A stretch of DNA of 64,000 nucleotides, taken from assembly GCA_030055595.1 (NCBI GenBank), contig JASFYH010000006.1:1-64000 (forward strand), written 5' to 3'. Source of the DNA: Archaeoglobales archaeon (GTDB lineage: Archaea > Halobacteriota > Archaeoglobi > Archaeoglobales > Archaeoglobaceae). Under the pieces are notes generated by a model. That model saw only the letters and a program-made list of their open reading frames with translations, had not been told where the DNA came from and made no database searches. Of the stretch, positions 26,595 through 58,689 are shown one piece after another (positions within the stretch are counted from its first letter, which is position 1; each line of letters starts with the position of its first letter). Position numbers and translations under genes: made by a program.

Positions 26595-27107
26595 TCACTC
26601 CCGAAACTCTAAATCCTTCCTGATCTCCTCATAAAACCGCTTCAAAAATTCGTGCCTTCTTTCAGCCAATTTTCTCGCGGTCTCGGTGTAAAGCAAGTCT
26701 TTTAGTTTCAAAAGCTTCTCTTCAAAATGTTTTATCGTCTCTTCTATGTTCCGACCTTTCTCACCAGCAACCATGAATGCTCTCGCAACTCCGATTGCTC
26801 CGAGAGCGTCGAGTTTGTCTGCGTCGCTCAAAACCTTTGCTTCAAGAGTTCTTGGCTTAATTCCCGCTGAAAAAGAGTGGGCTTCGATTGCATGAGCCAC
26901 CGCCTCAACAAAATCCTCGCTACAGCCCTGAACTTTTAGAATTTCTCTTGCAAGCTTTGCAGACTCAATTGCGTGGTTATCCTTGTCTCTGGCACAGTCA
27001 TGAAGTTCTGCAGACTTTAAAACAATCTCCAGATTTGCCCCCTCTCTTTCTGCAATGAGTTTTGCAAGTTTCACAACTCGTTGCACATGATCATTGCTGT
27101 GAGCCAC
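26595..27107 (-). CDS. HD-domain phosphohydrolase
   Basis: The 170-residue protein has the HD metal ligands: His in NDHVQRV, HDCARD, HAIEAHS and SDADKLDALGAIG. It fits the YedJ-like group of predicted nucleotide or metabolite phosphohydrolases. The GTG start at 27107 lies only a few codons before the first ligand, so the N-terminus is shorter than usual; a TTTTAAACCCC box 20-29 bases upstream supports this start as leaderless. Divergent from the RelE-like gene. Confidence 0.8.
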   Translation of the reverse strand: MAHSNDHVQRVVKLAKLIAEREGANLEIVLKSAELHDCARDKDNHAIESAKLAREILKVQGCSEDFVEAVAHAIEAHSFSAGIKPRTLEAKVLSDADKLDALGAIGVARAFMVAGEKGRNIEETIKHFEEKLLKLKDLLYTETARKLAERRHEFLKRFYEEIRKDLEFRE

Positions 27108-27133
27108 AGTTTTTGTTGCTTTTGGGGTTTAAA

Positions 27134-27352
27134 ATGTTCTCGTTAGCGCTGAGTTCAGTGGATAGAGAACTCATAAAAGATAGAATCTCAAAGCTCGCAT
27201 TCTTTCCGCTTGTTCGCCTCGATGTGAAGAAACTTAAAGGCTTTGAGAAGACTTATAGGCTAAGAGTTGGCGATTACAGAGTGATCTTTGAATTTGAGAA
27301 AGACGAGTATACTTGTCTGTTTCAAGTAAACAATTTAATGTTATCGCTCTAA
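27134..27352 (+). CDS. RelE/ParE-superfamily toxin-like protein, apparently shortened
   Basis: The 72-residue product contains the RelE core: RISKLAFFPLVRLDVKKLKGFEKTYRLRVGDYRVIFEF. This is the ribosome-dependent mRNA interferase fold. The normal C-terminal strand with basic residues (typically ending like VxxRREVY) is replaced after VNN by LMLSL and a stop, and the N-terminus is some ten residues short. No antitoxin gene adjoins it. It may be an inactive remnant or a fused end from a rearrangement at about 27336-27345. Confidence 0.65.
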   Translation: MFSLALSSVDRELIKDRISKLAFFPLVRLDVKKLKGFEKTYRLRVGDYRVIFEFEKDEYTCLFQVNNLMLSL

Positions 27353-27452
27353 CCGTAGAATTTGTTTGCCAGGTATTTGGATTCTCGAATTCTTTTAACT
27401 CTACATTTGCCATTCCATTAGCAATCACTGGAGTCGCTAAACTGCCGAGCAT
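27234..27452 (-). pseudogene. Possible 5' remnant of an unidentified gene
   Basis: Leftward from 27452 an ATG follows GGTGAG at proper distance, and a TATA-like ACTTATATACT lies 30-40 bases further up (about 27485-27495), so promoter, ribosome site and start are all present. About 37 codons read as plausible protein (LATPVIANGMANVELKEFENP). The frame then runs antisense into the 3' part of the RelE-like gene and stops. This looks like a gene whose body was lost. I do not recognise the protein. Confidence 0.35.
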
Positions 27453-27624
27453 GCTCTCACCAGTCAAAGATAAGCACAAGCAGTATATAAGTTTTGCTAC
27501 TTGCTGACATATATGTAAAAGGAGGTTTTTGATTTGAGATAAAATTCTTAAAATTAGTTAAAAAGTCCAGATTTGTATTTAGTTTCAAGAAGTGGTTGAG
27601 CTATAAAAATAAAAAATAGTTGGC

Positions 27625-30600
27625 TTACTTTCTCATTCCCACATAGAACACGATAACTGCTAAGACGACGATCAGTATTGCAATAAACGGAGTTGCAGAG
27701 ACTTCAAAGCTTTGCAACTGCTTTTCAGCTACTTCCATCTTGTATCCCGCAATTTCCTCATTCTGCTCCTTTTGCTCAGCCTTTGGAATTGATTGCTCAA
27801 ACCCAACGCCAGCGGTTTGGTTTCCGCTCTGTGAGGTTTGAGAAGGTGTCAAAGCCGTTGATTTGGAAACCCCTCTCCCCGAGCTTCTATAACTCGATTT
27901 TTGCTCGACGACTTCCTTCTTTTCTTCTTTTGTCTCCTTTTGCTCGATCAGCGAACTAAGTATTCCCGTTTTAAAATCGAGCAGTTCTATGTTCCCGCAA
28001 GTGTGATGGCAACAAGTGAAGCCGTATTCCTTCTGCAGTCTGTCCAATTCCTTTGCGAGCTGAACTTTAACTTCTTCGGGGGCATTCCAGTAATCTTTCC
28101 TTATCGCTTCAAGCATTCTCGCAACTATGGACTGCAAGGCATAAGGATTGTTCTTTTCAAAGAATTCTTTCAGCCCGAGATCATACTTGTCTTTCACATA
28201 GATTTCGTAGAAGTTCTGCCATGTTTTGTCTGAGATCAGGCTCGGCATCATCACATCCCAGCCCCAGAGGTTCTCCACAATTTCAGCCATAAGCCTTGCT
28301 CCGGCGTAGTCGTTCTCCATAACTCCTTCGATCCACTTCGGATTGAAGTATCTCGTCAAAATCTCGCTTGCAATGAACTCTTTAAGCGTTATAGCCTTCG
28401 GATCGTTAACGTTGCGAACGTCGAAGATGTAGGTTTCGGGATCGCTACCAGTTAAATGCCTTACAGCCAAAGCAATGCCACCGAGGTATTGGAAAACGTC
28501 GTCATTGTCCAAGGCTGCAAATATATTCGTTGATCTTGAATGCACAGCGAGATCTACATTCTTTAGAGCTCCAGCGAATACGTCTTTTGCAGAAATTCCC
28601 CAGAAATCCTGCCCATAACCAAATCCAACTCTGCTCAAAAATAGCTCAGCAAGCTTTCCGTCGCTTTGCCATGTATTGCTTGCCTTTACAGCTTCAGACA
28701 AACCAGTTCCGTAATTTCCAGGACTTTCAGAGAAAATCCTAAGCTTTGCAAACTTCTCAGCCTCTTCTTCGCTGTAACCTTTACTCTTTAAGTTTTCCTT
28801 TATCTCTAAGTAGTGCTTTCTAACATAGTTCAAGCTCGGATCTTCATTCGCGTTGATGCAAAGCTTCACCGCTTTGTCGAGCAATAGCATAAGCGAGGAA
28901 AAGGTGTCCCTATGAAGTCCGGAGCTCACAACGACCACATCTATTCTTGGTCTTTGGATTTCTTTTCCATCAGACAGCCTTAGCTTTAAATCGCTCAGTG
29001 GAATCAGGCTAACGTCTTTCACTCTCCCAGCTGAATCCCACTCAATTTTAACGCCCATCGTGTAAAGTACCGCTGCCTGCATGACGCCATAGTTGCGCAT
29101 CGTTTCAGTAGCCCAGAGAACATAAGCGATACTTTCTGGAAACTCTCCTTTCTCCTCATAGTATTTTCTAAGCAAATCGTCAACGAGCTTTACTGCGACG
29201 TTCCAAGCTTCTTTTGTAGGAATTGTTCTCGGATCAAAGCTGTAGAAGTTGTTTCCAGTTGGCAATGCTTCTGGCTTTCTTATTGGATCTCCCCCAATCC
29301 TTGGTAGGATGTATTGCCCATCCAAAGCCTGCAAGATCCTTGGAACCTCGATCGTGCAATTCATTAGATCGTAGTAGTATTTCAAAGCTTTTTCGAGTTC
29401 TTGACTTATCGATTCATTTACGCCGCCAAGTAATTTCTGCTGAGCCTCTTCTAAGCTACTTCCATTGAAGAGAACTTCCCTGAGCAAATCGTTTAAGATC
29501 TGCTCGTCCTCAGGCTCATTAATTGGCTTGACTTTGCTAACCTTTTCCTTGAAATCCTTTCCAAGCATCGCCTTCACGAATTCAAGCGTGATTTCATCGT
29601 TCCTGACAAATCCAAGAATGTGCAGACCATAGGGCATTACAGTGTTTGAAAGCTCGTGCAAGTGCTCGTGAAGCTTCGTTTGCAGGAAGTTCTCGAATTC
29701 TTCCTTGCTTAACTCTGAAATGTTTCCAAGGAATTCAAGCTCCAATTCTTTGTAAAGCTCTTCGATCGTTTTTCTAAGCTCAGCCTTTACAGCTTCGTCT
29801 TGAGCCTCAAAATACTGGTGGATCTTCTCGTGCAAAAGCGATAGGTTGCCATAGAGATCGCTTTCGATCAATGGAGGGGTTAGATGATCCACTATCACCG
29901 CCTGACCCCTTCTCTTTGCCTGTGTCCCTTCGCCAACGTTGTCCATTATGTATGGATAAACTACTGGCAGATCTTGAATGAGCAAAGCAGGCCAGCAGTC
30001 TTTTGCTGATAAACCGCTCTCCTTTCCAGGTAGCCATTCCTGAGTTCCATGTGTGCCAAAGTGAACAATTGCGTCTGCTTTAAATTCCTTGCTCAGCCAC
30101 AAGTAGAATGCGATGTATTGATGGTGAGGGGGCAACGATTTATCGTGGTATAGGATCGTTGAATTCTCGAGCCAGCCTCGAGAAGGCTGGGGAGCTAAGA
30201 TCACGTTACCCAAATTGATTAGTGGAATAACGATGAACTTACCGCTTTCATTTTCAAAAACCATCACTTCTCCAGGTGGTTCTCCCCAATGCTTGATGAC
30301 TTCCCGCCTTTTGTTATCTGGAAGCTCGTTGAACCACTGCAAATACTTCTCAGCCGGAATTAGAACCGCGGTTTTCGTCAAATTCTCAAGCTCATCTTTC
30401 TTCCAGCTTCCTATGTTAATTCCCTGAGTTATCAATAGCTTCGTAAGCAGTTTCTTGTCAAAGCTCGTCTCGAGAGTGTAGCCTTTTTCTTTCATGGCTT
30501 TAAGCAAAATTTCGAGGCTTGCTGGAACATCTAAATAGCTCGCACCAATGTTGTCTTTGCCACCGTTATGGTTGTAGTAAATTATTGCAACTTTTTTCTC

Positions 30601-32526
30601 GCCATTTTGCTTTCTGTGAAGCTCCGCCCATTTTAAAGCCCTTTTCGCAATCCATTCAATCTGTTCGTCGATCGGATCATAGTCCTTCGTCGTCTTGTTC
30701 TTCGCACCAGCGATTATGAATTCTGTAAGCCCATCAAGCTCTGGCAATGCGATTTGCCAAGCTATGGATTGCGGGTTTAAGCCGTGAAGGCTTTCCCATT
30801 CGCTTATGTTGTAGTAATACTCCATTATAGCCTTGATTGGCGTAACGTTCAGTTCTTGGAGGTATTTTAATCCCACATCCTCGCTGCCTGAATGGCTCCA
30901 AAGCCTAAAGGATGTGAGCGTTATTAGAACATCAACCCTCGCCTTACCCTCTTTTATTAGCCACTTCGTTGAATTTTGATCGCGATAGGTGAATGAGGAG
31001 AAGACGACATTAGCTCCAAGCTCTTCAAGTTTAAAGATCAGCTCATCAATCACAGGGTAAGTTGAGGGATCATTCACGTAGTAGTAGTGAATTCCGACGA
31101 CTGGAGCATTTTCCTTGAATCCATTGTGTTTATACCAGTTCATGTATTCTTCAAAGCTTAAAAATATCCCCATTCCTCCATAGCCGTTGCCAATAGCCCT
31201 TGGGTGATAAATTCCGTATGGCGGAATTTCGATCGGATTTGGAACTTCAGTTAGACCAAATTCTTCAACAGCTATATTGCATAGCTTAACTCCAATGAAG
31301 ATCATGAGCCTTTTGAAGTTTTCCGAGCCTCCGTAATTCCAGTAAAGCGTTATGTTGCTATACTCCGTTTCGCTGAGATTAACGTTTGTAATGCTGTGCA
31401 GATCTGTAAAGCCGAGGCCAAGGATCTTCGCTTTTTGCTTTAAAGGTAAAAGGTAATCCTTCAAGAGATCCTGAGCGGGATAGCCGAGCATGTAAAGGAA
31501 GAAGACGCTGAAATCGTTCAGATCCAACTTCTCTATTTCTTCTTTCAGATCCTCAACGTTGGAGTAGCCAAGCACTTTTACTTCGAGGTTCTTTTCAACA
31601 TAGGGCTCTTTACTCGCATTCAGGATCAATGGAACCTGCTTCGAGTCTTTGTCGAGGATGAAAAGGATCTTTGCCCTATTTTCGGGAGCCTTTGGAGGAT
31701 CATAGCTAATTTGCAAATCGAAGAATTTAGCTCTCAAATAATTCACAAGATTGAGCAAGTTCTCTTTTCCACCGTAAACCCAGTATCTTGCGATCTTTTC
31801 ATCGCTATAGCCAGTTGATGAGTTGAATGAAACGATCACCGCATTCGTAGCGTTTGCGATCTCACTTGAAAGACTTTCATTGAGATTTGCTAAAAATATA
31901 AGGCTTTTGTTTGCAAAATCGACCTCATCTCCTATTCGGAAGACTTCTATAAGCGCCGTTTCATTTTCGATCTCCTTTAAAGTTTCGTAGTTCTCGTTGT
32001 TTCCAAGGCAGAAGGTGATCAGATCCCTGAACAAAGCGATCTCTATTTCATACCTGTCCAATTCGATCGACTTCGCGACATAGCCTTCTTTGCTAATTAA
32101 AACCTCAAAGCCGAGAGCTGTGGTGTTAAGAGTCGTCTTTCCTTCTTCATTTGTGAGCTTTTCAACTCCTTTAGCCTTTATCAACGCATTCTCAATTGGA
32201 TCTCTCAAATGGTTAAAAACTTCGATCAAAACGAGTTTGCAATTTAGTTCTATTGTAATTCTTGAGCTTTCATTCAGCTCTATGAAAGTTTCGTTGTGAC
32301 ATAGCTCATAACTTGCATTGACCGTGTAACCTCCTTCAGAAAGCTCAAAAATTGCAGAACCGCTGGAAGTGAGCTTCTGAGCGATCGATCCGGTCTCGTT
32401 GTAAATGGCAACGGTGACATTCTCAAGTGCGTTGCCGTTAATTAGCACTTCAACTCTCAACTCGTAACCAGAAGCTACAAAGCTCATTGAGACCATGAGC
32501 AACAAGAAAAGCTCTTTTTTAAGCAC
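27625..32526 (-). CDS. CobN/BchH-family chelatase-like protein with signal peptide and C-terminal membrane anchor
   Basis: The 1633-residue protein starts at GTG (GGAGGTGG upstream) with a signal peptide (MLKKELFLLLMVSMSFVASG). Two beta-sandwich carboxypeptidase-regulatory-like repeats follow (about 22-90 and 94-165). The CobN/BchH body runs from about 290 to 1530; it includes the hallmark HFGTHGTQEWLPGK (His822, His826), PYIMDNVGEGTQAKRRG and a late CCHHTC (1505-1510). A Lys/Glu/Ser/Thr/Gln-rich linker and a membrane helix (1614-1631) ending RK close it. CobN is the large subunit of cobaltochelatase, normally cytoplasmic and ATP-driven with CobS/CobT-like partners; none is nearby. The topology puts this homologue outside the cell. 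Its substrate (corrinoid, porphyrin or metal) is unknown. Confidence 0.88.
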   Translation of the reverse strand: MLKKELFLLLMVSMSFVASGYELRVEVLINGNALENVTVAIYNETGSIAQKLTSSGSAIFELSEGGYTVNASYELCHNETFIELNESSRITIELNCKLVLIEVFNHLRDPIENALIKAKGVEKLTNEEGKTTLNTTALGFEVLISKEGYVAKSIELDRYEIEIALFRDLITFCLGNNENYETLKEIENETALIEVFRIGDEVDFANKSLIFLANLNESLSSEIANATNAVIVSFNSSTGYSDEKIARYWVYGGKENLLNLVNYLRAKFFDLQISYDPPKAPENRAKILFILDKDSKQVPLILNASKEPYVEKNLEVKVLGYSNVEDLKEEIEKLDLNDFSVFFLYMLGYPAQDLLKDYLLPLKQKAKILGLGFTDLHSITNVNLSETEYSNITLYWNYGGSENFKRLMIFIGVKLCNIAVEEFGLTEVPNPIEIPPYGIYHPRAIGNGYGGMGIFLSFEEYMNWYKHNGFKENAPVVGIHYYYVNDPSTYPVIDELIFKLEELGANVVFSSFTYRDQNSTKWLIKEGKARVDVLITLTSFRLWSHSGSEDVGLKYLQELNVTPIKAIMEYYYNISEWESLHGLNPQSIAWQIALPELDGLTEFIIAGAKNKTTKDYDPIDEQIEWIAKRALKWAELHRKQNGEKKVAIIYYNHNGGKDNIGASYLDVPASLEILLKAMKEKGYTLETSFDKKLLTKLLITQGINIGSWKKDELENLTKTAVLIPAEKYLQWFNELPDNKRREVIKHWGEPPGEVMVFENESGKFIVIPLINLGNVILAPQPSRGWLENSTILYHDKSLPPHHQYIAFYLWLSKEFKADAIVHFGTHGTQEWLPGKESGLSAKDCWPALLIQDLPVVYPYIMDNVGEGTQAKRRGQAVIVDHLTPPLIESDLYGNLSLLHEKIHQYFEAQDEAVKAELRKTIEELYKELELEFLGNISELSKEEFENFLQTKLHEHLHELSNTVMPYGLHILGFVRNDEITLEFVKAMLGKDFKEKVSKVKPINEPEDEQILNDLLREVLFNGSSLEEAQQKLLGGVNESISQELEKALKYYYDLMNCTIEVPRILQALDGQYILPRIGGDPIRKPEALPTGNNFYSFDPRTIPTKEAWNVAVKLVDDLLRKYYEEKGEFPESIAYVLWATETMRNYGVMQAAVLYTMGVKIEWDSAGRVKDVSLIPLSDLKLRLSDGKEIQRPRIDVVVVSSGLHRDTFSSLMLLLDKAVKLCINANEDPSLNYVRKHYLEIKENLKSKGYSEEEAEKFAKLRIFSESPGNYGTGLSEAVKASNTWQSDGKLAELFLSRVGFGYGQDFWGISAKDVFAGALKNVDLAVHSRSTNIFAALDNDDVFQYLGGIALAVRHLTGSDPETYIFDVRNVNDPKAITLKEFIASEILTRYFNPKWIEGVMENDYAGARLMAEIVENLWGWDVMMPSLISDKTWQNFYEIYVKDKYDLGLKEFFEKNNPYALQSIVARMLEAIRKDYWNAPEEVKVQLAKELDRLQKEYGFTCCHHTCGNIELLDFKTGILSSLIEQKETKEEKKEVVEQKSSYRSSGRGVSKSTALTPSQTSQSGNQTAGVGFEQSIPKAEQKEQNEEIAGYKMEVAEKQLQSFEVSATPFIAILIVVLAVIVFYVGMRK

Positions 32527-32529
32527 TTT

Positions 32530-32577
32530 TCCACCTCCAGTTTGTTTGATTTAGAGTAAAGCTAAATTGTATTTAAG
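32530..32577 (-). promoter_or_regulatory. Promoter and ribosome site of the CobN-like gene
   Basis: Read leftward, CTTAAATAC at 32569-32577 is the likely TATA box and GGAGGTGG at 32530-32537 the ribosome site, four to five bases before the GTG start. The remaining intergenic sequence up to 32710 is AT-rich; I see nothing else certain in it. Confidence 0.55.
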
Positions 32578-57972: not shown

Positions 57973-58689
57973 TTAAATCTCAAGACAATTATACTTTTCC
58001 ACGAAGTGGACAACGTCTCCAACAACCATCAGTGCGGGACTTTCAAAGGATTTTTCTAAGGACGACAATTTGCCCAATGTGGAGACAAAGACTTTTTGAT
58101 CCTTCAAAGAACCCCTTTGGATAACTGCAACCTTCGTTTCTTCCTTAAAACCACTTTTGATCAGGTTTCTCGAGATCTCAGAAGCAGAAATTCCGCTCAT
58201 GAGAACAACCAAAGTCGAATTTCTTAAAGTTTCTTCATAATCCCCAACTTCTTTTCCACCAATAACGACGATCCCTCTTCCGTATTTTGGATGTGTCAGA
58301 GGAATTTTCGCACACGCAGGAACACCGTTTACAGAGCTTACCCCGGGAATGACCTCAAAGGGAATTTTATTAGCTTTAAGAAACTCGATCTCTTCCCATA
58401 GCCTTCCAAAAACTGTCGGATCTCCACCTTTAAGCCTTAAAACCTTTTTTCCCTCTTCTACAAACTTTTTCATCAGATTGTTTATCTCGATCTGCCTTTC
58501 TTTGCCCTTCCCATCTTTTCCAACGTAAATAGCAGTTTTTCCCAAACTCTGAACTAACTTTGTGATCTCTTCACCTACCAATCTGTCGTATAATATCACA
58601 TCCGCCTCTTTTAGCAATCTATAAGCTTTAAGTGTCAGCAGTTCAGGATCCCCCGGACCCGCACCGACTATGTAAACCTTGCCTTCCAC
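57973..58689 (-). CDS. cobA: Uroporphyrinogen-III C-methyltransferase (SumT/CobA)
   Basis: The 238-residue tetrapyrrole methyltransferase makes precorrin-2 with two SAM. Signatures are VYIVGAGPGDPELLTLKAYRLLKEADVILYDRLV, LKGGDPTVFGRLWEEIEFL, EVIPGVSS and LTHPKYGRGIVVIGG. It supplies both corrinoid and siroheme/heme pathways; sulfite reductase, B12-dependent NrdJ and the CODH/ACS corrinoid protein would all need its product. The domain stands alone, not fused with a dehydrogenase/ferrochelatase (CysG). Confidence 0.94.
   Translation of the reverse strand: MEGKVYIVGAGPGDPELLTLKAYRLLKEADVILYDRLVGEEITKLVQSLGKTAIYVGKDGKGKERQIEINNLMKKFVEEGKKVLRLKGGDPTVFGRLWEEIEFLKANKIPFEVIPGVSSVNGVPACAKIPLTHPKYGRGIVVIGGKEVGDYEETLRNSTLVVLMSGISASEISRNLIKSGFKEETKVAVIQRGSLKDQKVFVSTLGKLSSLEKSFESPALMVVGDVVHFVEKYNCLEI

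Follow-up and report, generated by a model that had tools for sequence, protein, structure and literature searches.

We propose that the sole CobN homologue of an Archaeoglobales genome is a (de)chelatase of the cell surface that is driven by an ion gradient, works together with DUF2162, ExbB and DUF2149 proteins and releases Co, Ni or Fe bound in tetrapyrroles, a reading to which we assign a probability of roughly 55%. The gene lies in the window analysed here, a stretch of 64,000 nucleotides (Table 1). In this model, for which we infer the direction of the reaction, the substrate and the mechanical coupling to the motor, the protein would belong to a surface-exposed, C-terminally anchored extracytoplasmic branch of the CobN/ChlH superfamily that also holds HmuS; the ExbB-DUF2149 pair would replace the ATP-driven ChlI/ChlD ring of cytosolic CobN, using an ion gradient to drive the chelatase outside the cell; and the reaction would most likely strip a captured tetrapyrrole, or a ligand like it, of its transition metal (Co, Ni or Fe), which would then enter via DUF2162 or via the cell's CbiMNQO/FeoB. 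Speculatively, DUF2162 could be a permease or a thiol/electron conduit that carries metal or reducing equivalents over the membrane. More tentatively, and at slightly short of even odds, we suggest that two different motors power the class I chelatase body: a cytosolic AAA+ ATP ring and an external, ion-driven ExbB-DUF2149 pair.

Exported CobN homologues as such are already known, namely HmuS, the NCBIfam family NF004645 and BtuS of M. barkeri; what we did not find in the searched literature is the archaeal DUF2162-ExbB-DUF2149-CobN module, the CCHHTC signature, the near-complete co-occurrence and the motor hypothesis. In the 2025 study of HmuS, the role of its many archaeal homologues was described as unclear, with those species lacking complete hmu operons (PMC12583661), whilst a 2026 study of P. 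gingivalis treats HmuTUV as uncharacterised and presumes heme transport (PMC13227078).

Protein layout and signature of the exported family

The gene encodes 1633 residues from a GTG start and is the sole PF02514 match in a genome of 1.55 Mb and 99% completeness; the match to Pfam CobN-Mg_chel covers positions 3–1089 of the 1090 in the profile. The original prediction of a single reading frame with signal sequence, CobN body, CCHHTC, polar linker and final helix followed by RK was confirmed by sequence, Pfam and hydropathy, and within the stretch claimed as the CobN hallmark (residues 822–835) we found HFGTHG at 822–827. The signal peptide was called by eye and from hydropathy; the C-terminal helix has a mean KD value of 2.87. 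Both elements support the export and anchoring that had been predicted, and from its sequence the protein thus appears to be anchored at the surface, with signal peptide, CobN body, CCHHTC and C-terminal helix in succession. This layout is far beyond chance and recurs in every long CobN examined. The two Ig-like/carboxypeptidase-regulatory-like repeats that had also been claimed for the N-terminal extension held up less well: the protein itself gave no Pfam match to them, and the same-genus orthologue gave one sub-threshold PF13620 match (E 4.5e-4, residues 102–154). A segment of the head domain, YWxYGGxEN, is repeated in this extension (blastp of one segment against the other, with two sequences in the search, E 3e-5).

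Table 1. Positions in the window of the exported CobN gene and of the elements of its product
Feature	Position	Strand	Evidence
Predicted exported CobN/HmuS-branch chelatase-like protein	27625..32526	-	ORF; Pfam CobN-Mg_chel, 1175 bits; only PF02514 match in genome
Shine-Dalgarno GGAGGTGG, strong, ahead of the GTG start	32531..32538	-	sequence
Putative signal sequence MLKKELFLLLMVSMSFVASG, residues 1–20	32467..32526	-	sequence; N-terminal hydrophobic segments in homologues with the same C-terminal motif
N-terminal extension, residues 21–290	31657..32466	-	weak Ig/CarboxypepD_reg-like part and short repeat of head-domain segment
CobN/Mg-chelatase body, residues 395–1486	28069..31344	-	Pfam; AlphaFold; best PDB folds 7c6o (CobN) and 9d26 (HmuS)
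HFGTHG, residues 822–827; His826 equivalent to HmuS His538	30046..30063	-	alignment to 9d26
Glu866, equivalent to HmuS Glu577	29929..29931	-	Glu in every aligned sequence
DDVFQ, residues 1342–1346; Asp1343 at HmuS His1209 position	28489..28503	-	alignment
CCHHTC, residues 1505–1510, diagnostic of exported clade	27997..28014	-	motif comparison, exported versus cytosolic
Polar Ser/Thr/Gln/Glu/Lys linker, residues 1520–1605	27712..27969	-	sequence
C-terminal membrane helix, residues 1609–1627, then short basic tail	27646..27702	-	hydropathy 2.87

In related genomes, long-layout CobN-like reading frames with a C-terminal helix, the first set of which was picked independently of the motif, carry TCCHHTC[GA]N just past the CobN body wherever the C-terminus is visible. 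The motif is found in none of the 15 or more cytosolic CobN proteins examined, and the C-terminal helix is present in 29 of 34 exported but 0 of 15 cytosolic forms. A scan of GTDB with the exported CobN as single protein returned no relative; a DNA pattern for CCHHTC, run over 84,980 genomes, gave at least 118 stretches, the matches listed being from Methanosarcinales, Methanothrix, ANME-1, ANME-2, Methanobacteriaceae, Methanoculleus and a few Bacillota. The architecture has a wide distribution, covering methanogens, ANME archaea and some bacteria; in Trichlorobacter lovleyi the exported CobN has CCDHTCNN at this site. NCBIfam NF004645, a long "cobaltochelatase subunit CobN" (1597 aa) from the same archaeal group, shows the same layout including the C-terminal anchor, although our protein scores 1204 bits against a cut-off of 1619; the family name rests on no tested function. 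Many methanogen proteins annotated as cobaltochelatase CobN are probably not enzymes of B12 biosynthesis.

Two variations of gene structure were also seen. Some Methanosarcinaceae-like genomes contain open frames of 3300–3400 aa with two tandem CobN bodies (G254:C79:4715-14488, L041; G087:C1:2508771-2518238), and the cytosolic CobN of one family (f1; L030 and relatives) is often encoded by two adjacent reading frames (~790 and ~497 aa), split at the same profile point, about 665/676.

Fold, active site and relation to HmuS

The protein is a member of the class I chelatases, the CobN/ChlH superfamily. For residues 316–1515, an AlphaFold model built on 74 homologues reached a pLDDT of 91.3 and a pTM of 0.90, and Foldseek matched it over nearly its full length to CobN (7c6o, TM 0.82) and HmuS (9d26, TM 0.83), with ChlH at 0.73; by sequence, HmuS ranks first in the PDB (517 bits), ahead of CobN and ChlH (452 bits each). 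In common with cytosolic CobN (7c6o, 9uk9) and ChlH/BchH, which are driven by CobS/CobT or ChlI/ChlD, the protein has the HxGxHG motif with the catalytic His826 and the downstream Glu866. Of 59 aligned superfamily members, 55 have His at the position of His826, and the H538A mutation abolishes turnover in HmuS (PMC12583661). As modelled, the fold and both catalytic residues are retained, making the metal stripping at the surface that had been predicted plausible.

An alternative is that the protein is no enzyme but captures corrinoids or porphyrins with its CobN body and passes them to a BtuCDF-like importer, the ExbB-DUF2149 pair energising this hand-over or a DUF2162 permease. The large tetrapyrrole cavity of CobN-fold proteins and the FecCD-type permeases of the genome would suit such a role, and in three exported paralogues Phe replaces the catalytic His, which suggests that non-enzymatic members exist. 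We nevertheless consider it unlikely for the present protein, given that His826 and Glu866 are retained, that a corrin pathway is encoded in the genome and that we recognised no btu genes in the conserved neighbourhood of exported CobN.

HmuS (BtuS) from the hmuYRSTUV operon of Bacteroidota is the closest characterised system: it is likewise an exported, membrane-anchored CobN homologue with no ATP motor, has a C-terminal helix, bears SCSGFVCDN, a related Cys motif, at the CCHHTC site, is linked to an ExbB-like protein (HmuU) and to DUF2149 (HmuV), and performs NADH-dependent demetallation of heme. The archaeal system differs in that HmuY, HmuR and the outer membrane are lacking and that DUF2162 fills the third slot in place of HmuT, without detectable similarity: the identification of HmuT with DUF2162 was rejected by profile comparison (hhalign probability 1.4%), which counts against our reading. 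The active sites also diverge. The HmuS motif LSLDHxxEFMGG (His1209, Glu1212) is replaced by LDNDDVFQYLGG, with Asp1343 and Gln1346; at this second metal-facing position, 26 of 34 exported forms of the archaeal type have Asp, as does M. tuberculosis CobN, and 3 of 3 HmuS have His. The heme ligands of HmuS at the head/neck interface (Met79/His254) are not kept: Ser539 stands at the His254 position, and residue 347, which probably corresponds to Met79, is L, F or I in most exported proteins of this type. A methionine-rich insertion was not found in the protein either (at most 4 Met per 60 residues, compared to 18 in Prevotella HmuS and 5–7 in the other two HmuS checked). With the heme site, the insertion and the second axial His all missing, the substrate need not be heme. 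This bears on a further alternative, namely that the protein is a heme de-chelatase in the strict sense of HmuS, taking iron from heme for nutrition: the higher sequence score to HmuS than to CobN and the shared ExbB and DUF2149 companions favour it, as does the fact that M. barkeri paralogues, whose proteome pattern tied them to iron and heme, were given the name BtuS (PMC10846266), but the missing ligands and the archaeal neighbourhoods, which point equally to cobalt or nickel, render it distinctly unlikely.

A tree built from 58 CobN bodies places the exported proteins of archaea on one branch (SH-aLRT 98) together with HmuS and further bacterial members, most of them with ExbB/DUF2149 genes alongside, and sets this branch apart from cytosolic CobN and BchH. 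A strictly monophyletic exported clade including HmuS is favoured by the best tree, yet could not be upheld, as moving HmuS alone to the cytosolic forms is not rejected (p-AU 0.14), a further point against our reading.

A proposed ion-channel module in place of the ATP motor

Clustering of neighbours in 20-kb loci gives a conserved gene order: DUF2162 (PF09930), MotA/TolQ/ExbB (PF01618), DUF2149 (PF09919) and exported CobN. In a same-genus genome (G007, L065) the three partner genes directly precede exported CobN. In the present genome, gene and module are unlinked on different contigs, which counts against the proposed coupling; the three partners are intact on contig C5 (41656-43274, L209), ~0.5 kb from the contig end. 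A dispersed repeat of ~130 bp, possibly a MITE-like element, adjoins the 3' end of the CobN gene (27415-27556) and has other copies on C5 (43428, just past DUF2149), C26, C16 and C18, as well as several in the same-genus genome: the copies by CobN and by DUF2149 may explain the separation of the two, unless contig joining is at fault.

DUF2162 crosses the membrane several times, and its PCPxC is invariant. The ExbB homologue has retained GLxGT, matches the TolQ, MotA and ExbB structures by profile and falls into Pfam MotA_ExbB like its counterparts in the ExbB-ExbD, TolQ-TolR and MotA-MotB motors, although the archaeal module has no TonB or flagellar partner. DUF2149 resembles ExbD in layout, consisting of a single transmembrane helix and a small outer domain, and the near-invariant Asp of the helix (LFDVAMVF; VDVMLVF in bacteria) has the same place and setting as the ion-carrying Asp of ExbD in the ExbB/ExbD pair. 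Since DUF2149 shows no detectable sequence similarity to ExbD in the PDB (0 matches) and its model is poor (pLDDT 61, again counting against our reading), we do not treat it as a proven ExbD homologue and limit the claim to topology and the Asp.

The association with exported CobN is close. DUF2149 is found in 34 of 39 exported-CobN regions and ChlI/ChlD in none, whereas 8 of 23 cytosolic-CobN loci have ChlI/ChlD and none has the DUF2162-ExbB-DUF2149 module, both being sought within 1.5-kb flanks for the cytosolic loci. Amongst the 393 genomes of the phylum, where a protein counted as exported CobN if it scored around 950 bits or more against NF004645, 96 contain exported CobN and DUF2149, 19 contain DUF2149 only and 1 contains exported CobN only (Fisher p 6e-71); this single case (G186) lies on a 7-kb contig. 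ChlI/ChlD is lacking (E<1e-40) in 22 of the 97 exported-CobN genomes including the present one, where the best hit is a generic AAA protein at 49.5 bits. G007, from the same genus, serves as an internal control in that both systems occur in it: its cytosolic CobN is next to ChlI/ChlD and its exported CobN next to ExbB/DUF2149.

That no ATP-driven chelatase partner is encoded agrees with the original prediction, but the conclusion drawn there, that an exported CobN without ATP cannot act as a standard chelatase, is not supported as a general one: HmuS takes iron out of heme without ATP (PMC12583661), and the family travels with an ExbB-type ion-channel pair. HmuS is also active in vitro without HmuTUV, which counts against the motor model in so far as the reaction can proceed without a motor. 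The data further bear on the possibility of an ordinary cobaltochelatase subunit for B12 synthesis that has wrongly been seen as exported. Such a role would fit the sole CobN homologue of a genome and the matches to NCBIfam CobN models, albeit below their cut-offs; it is highly improbable, however, as the C-terminal helix and the N-terminal hydrophobic segment recur across the clade, ChlI/ChlD is missing and CbiX is available for early cobalt insertion. Compared to canonical cobaltochelatases (CobNST or CobN-ChlID), the protein has no AAA+ partner and a predicted location outside the cytosol, and its genome encodes DUF2162, ExbB and DUF2149 as in the proposed exported clade.

In Bacteroidota, the ExbB-like and DUF2149 genes are hmuU and hmuV (PMC10434189), and their products have been read as TonB helpers (PMC12583661). 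In T. lovleyi, ExbB-DUF2149-CobN is followed by a separate ExbB/ExbD/TonB set, so that in this species the pair does not act as the TonB motor. Archaea, to our knowledge, have no TonB system at all and no outer membrane receptors. A TonB motor is hence disfavoured on both counts, and the pair would rather serve the chelatase or the permease. Pairs of ExbB and DUF2149 also lie beside giant surface proteins with CARDB domains (1966 and 3038 aa; L213:1137-8569, L217:3-10264), which gave no CobN domain match; with such unrelated neighbours, the pair may energise archaeal surface proteins in general, a point against our reading. Archaea thus carry the inner part of the hmu system (CobN, ExbB and DUF2149, plus DUF2162) and no outer-membrane part, in genomes with and without the ATP motor, making the role of HmuU/HmuV directly testable in genetically tractable Methanosarcina. 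If the reading of two motors is true, the archaeal set shows HmuU/HmuV of gut Bacteroidota to be the engine of a de-chelatase and not TonB helpers.

Metal context and genomic neighbourhood

The genome encodes tetrapyrrole methylases of the corrin pathway, CbiX, two CbiM, FecCD and FeoB, and within the window, 25 kb from CobN, a uroporphyrinogen-III C-methyltransferase (57973-58689; TIGR01469, above cut-off), the entry enzyme to corrin, siroheme and F430. With its own corrin pathway and CbiX, the organism does not need CobN for B12, and the B12 scavenging suggested originally is not required; entry routes for freed metal are not lacking, given CbiM, FecCD and FeoB. As to the transport genes looked for, CbiMNQO does lie beside some exported-CobN operons, together with tetrapyrrole methylases (L079, L080), whilst BtuCDF-type permeases are present in the genome but unlinked. 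The neighbourhoods point to several metals: to cobalt or nickel in these two operons, and also through a CobW-like gene next to one exported CobN (L231), HypC-HypD-HypE next to that of Runella and corrinoid genes next to that of T. lovleyi; and to iron through an iron ABC transporter near the Azospirillum gene. In a hydrogenotrophic methanogen, a CobN1 protein, be it exported or cytosolic, is abundant only under nickel limitation (PMC12350162); the level of M. barkeri BtuS shifts with the iron source (PMC10846266); and the cobN operon PA1922-1925 of P. aeruginosa is induced ~45-150-fold in a zinc-uptake mutant (PMC4542158), pointing to zinc.

The exported CobN gene lies 185 bp behind cdhA-cdhB, and neighbouring CODH and NrdJ had been taken to strengthen the idea of a corrinoid role. 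This support is weak, the conserved partners being DUF2162, ExbB and DUF2149 on another contig, and a conserved CODH/NrdJ linkage was discarded, as the immediate upstream neighbours differ in the same-genus orthologue. A loose link is possible, since exported CobN clusters near a CODH/ACS gene block in one methanogen genus (G050, G107; L069-L072). Beyond the repeat, a short reading frame (27062-27352) resembles, by eye, a fragment of a RelE-type toxin, and 148 bp of this stretch (27160-27307) recur with 97% identity in G007 at L065:2149-2296, some 5 kb away from the CobN orthologue.
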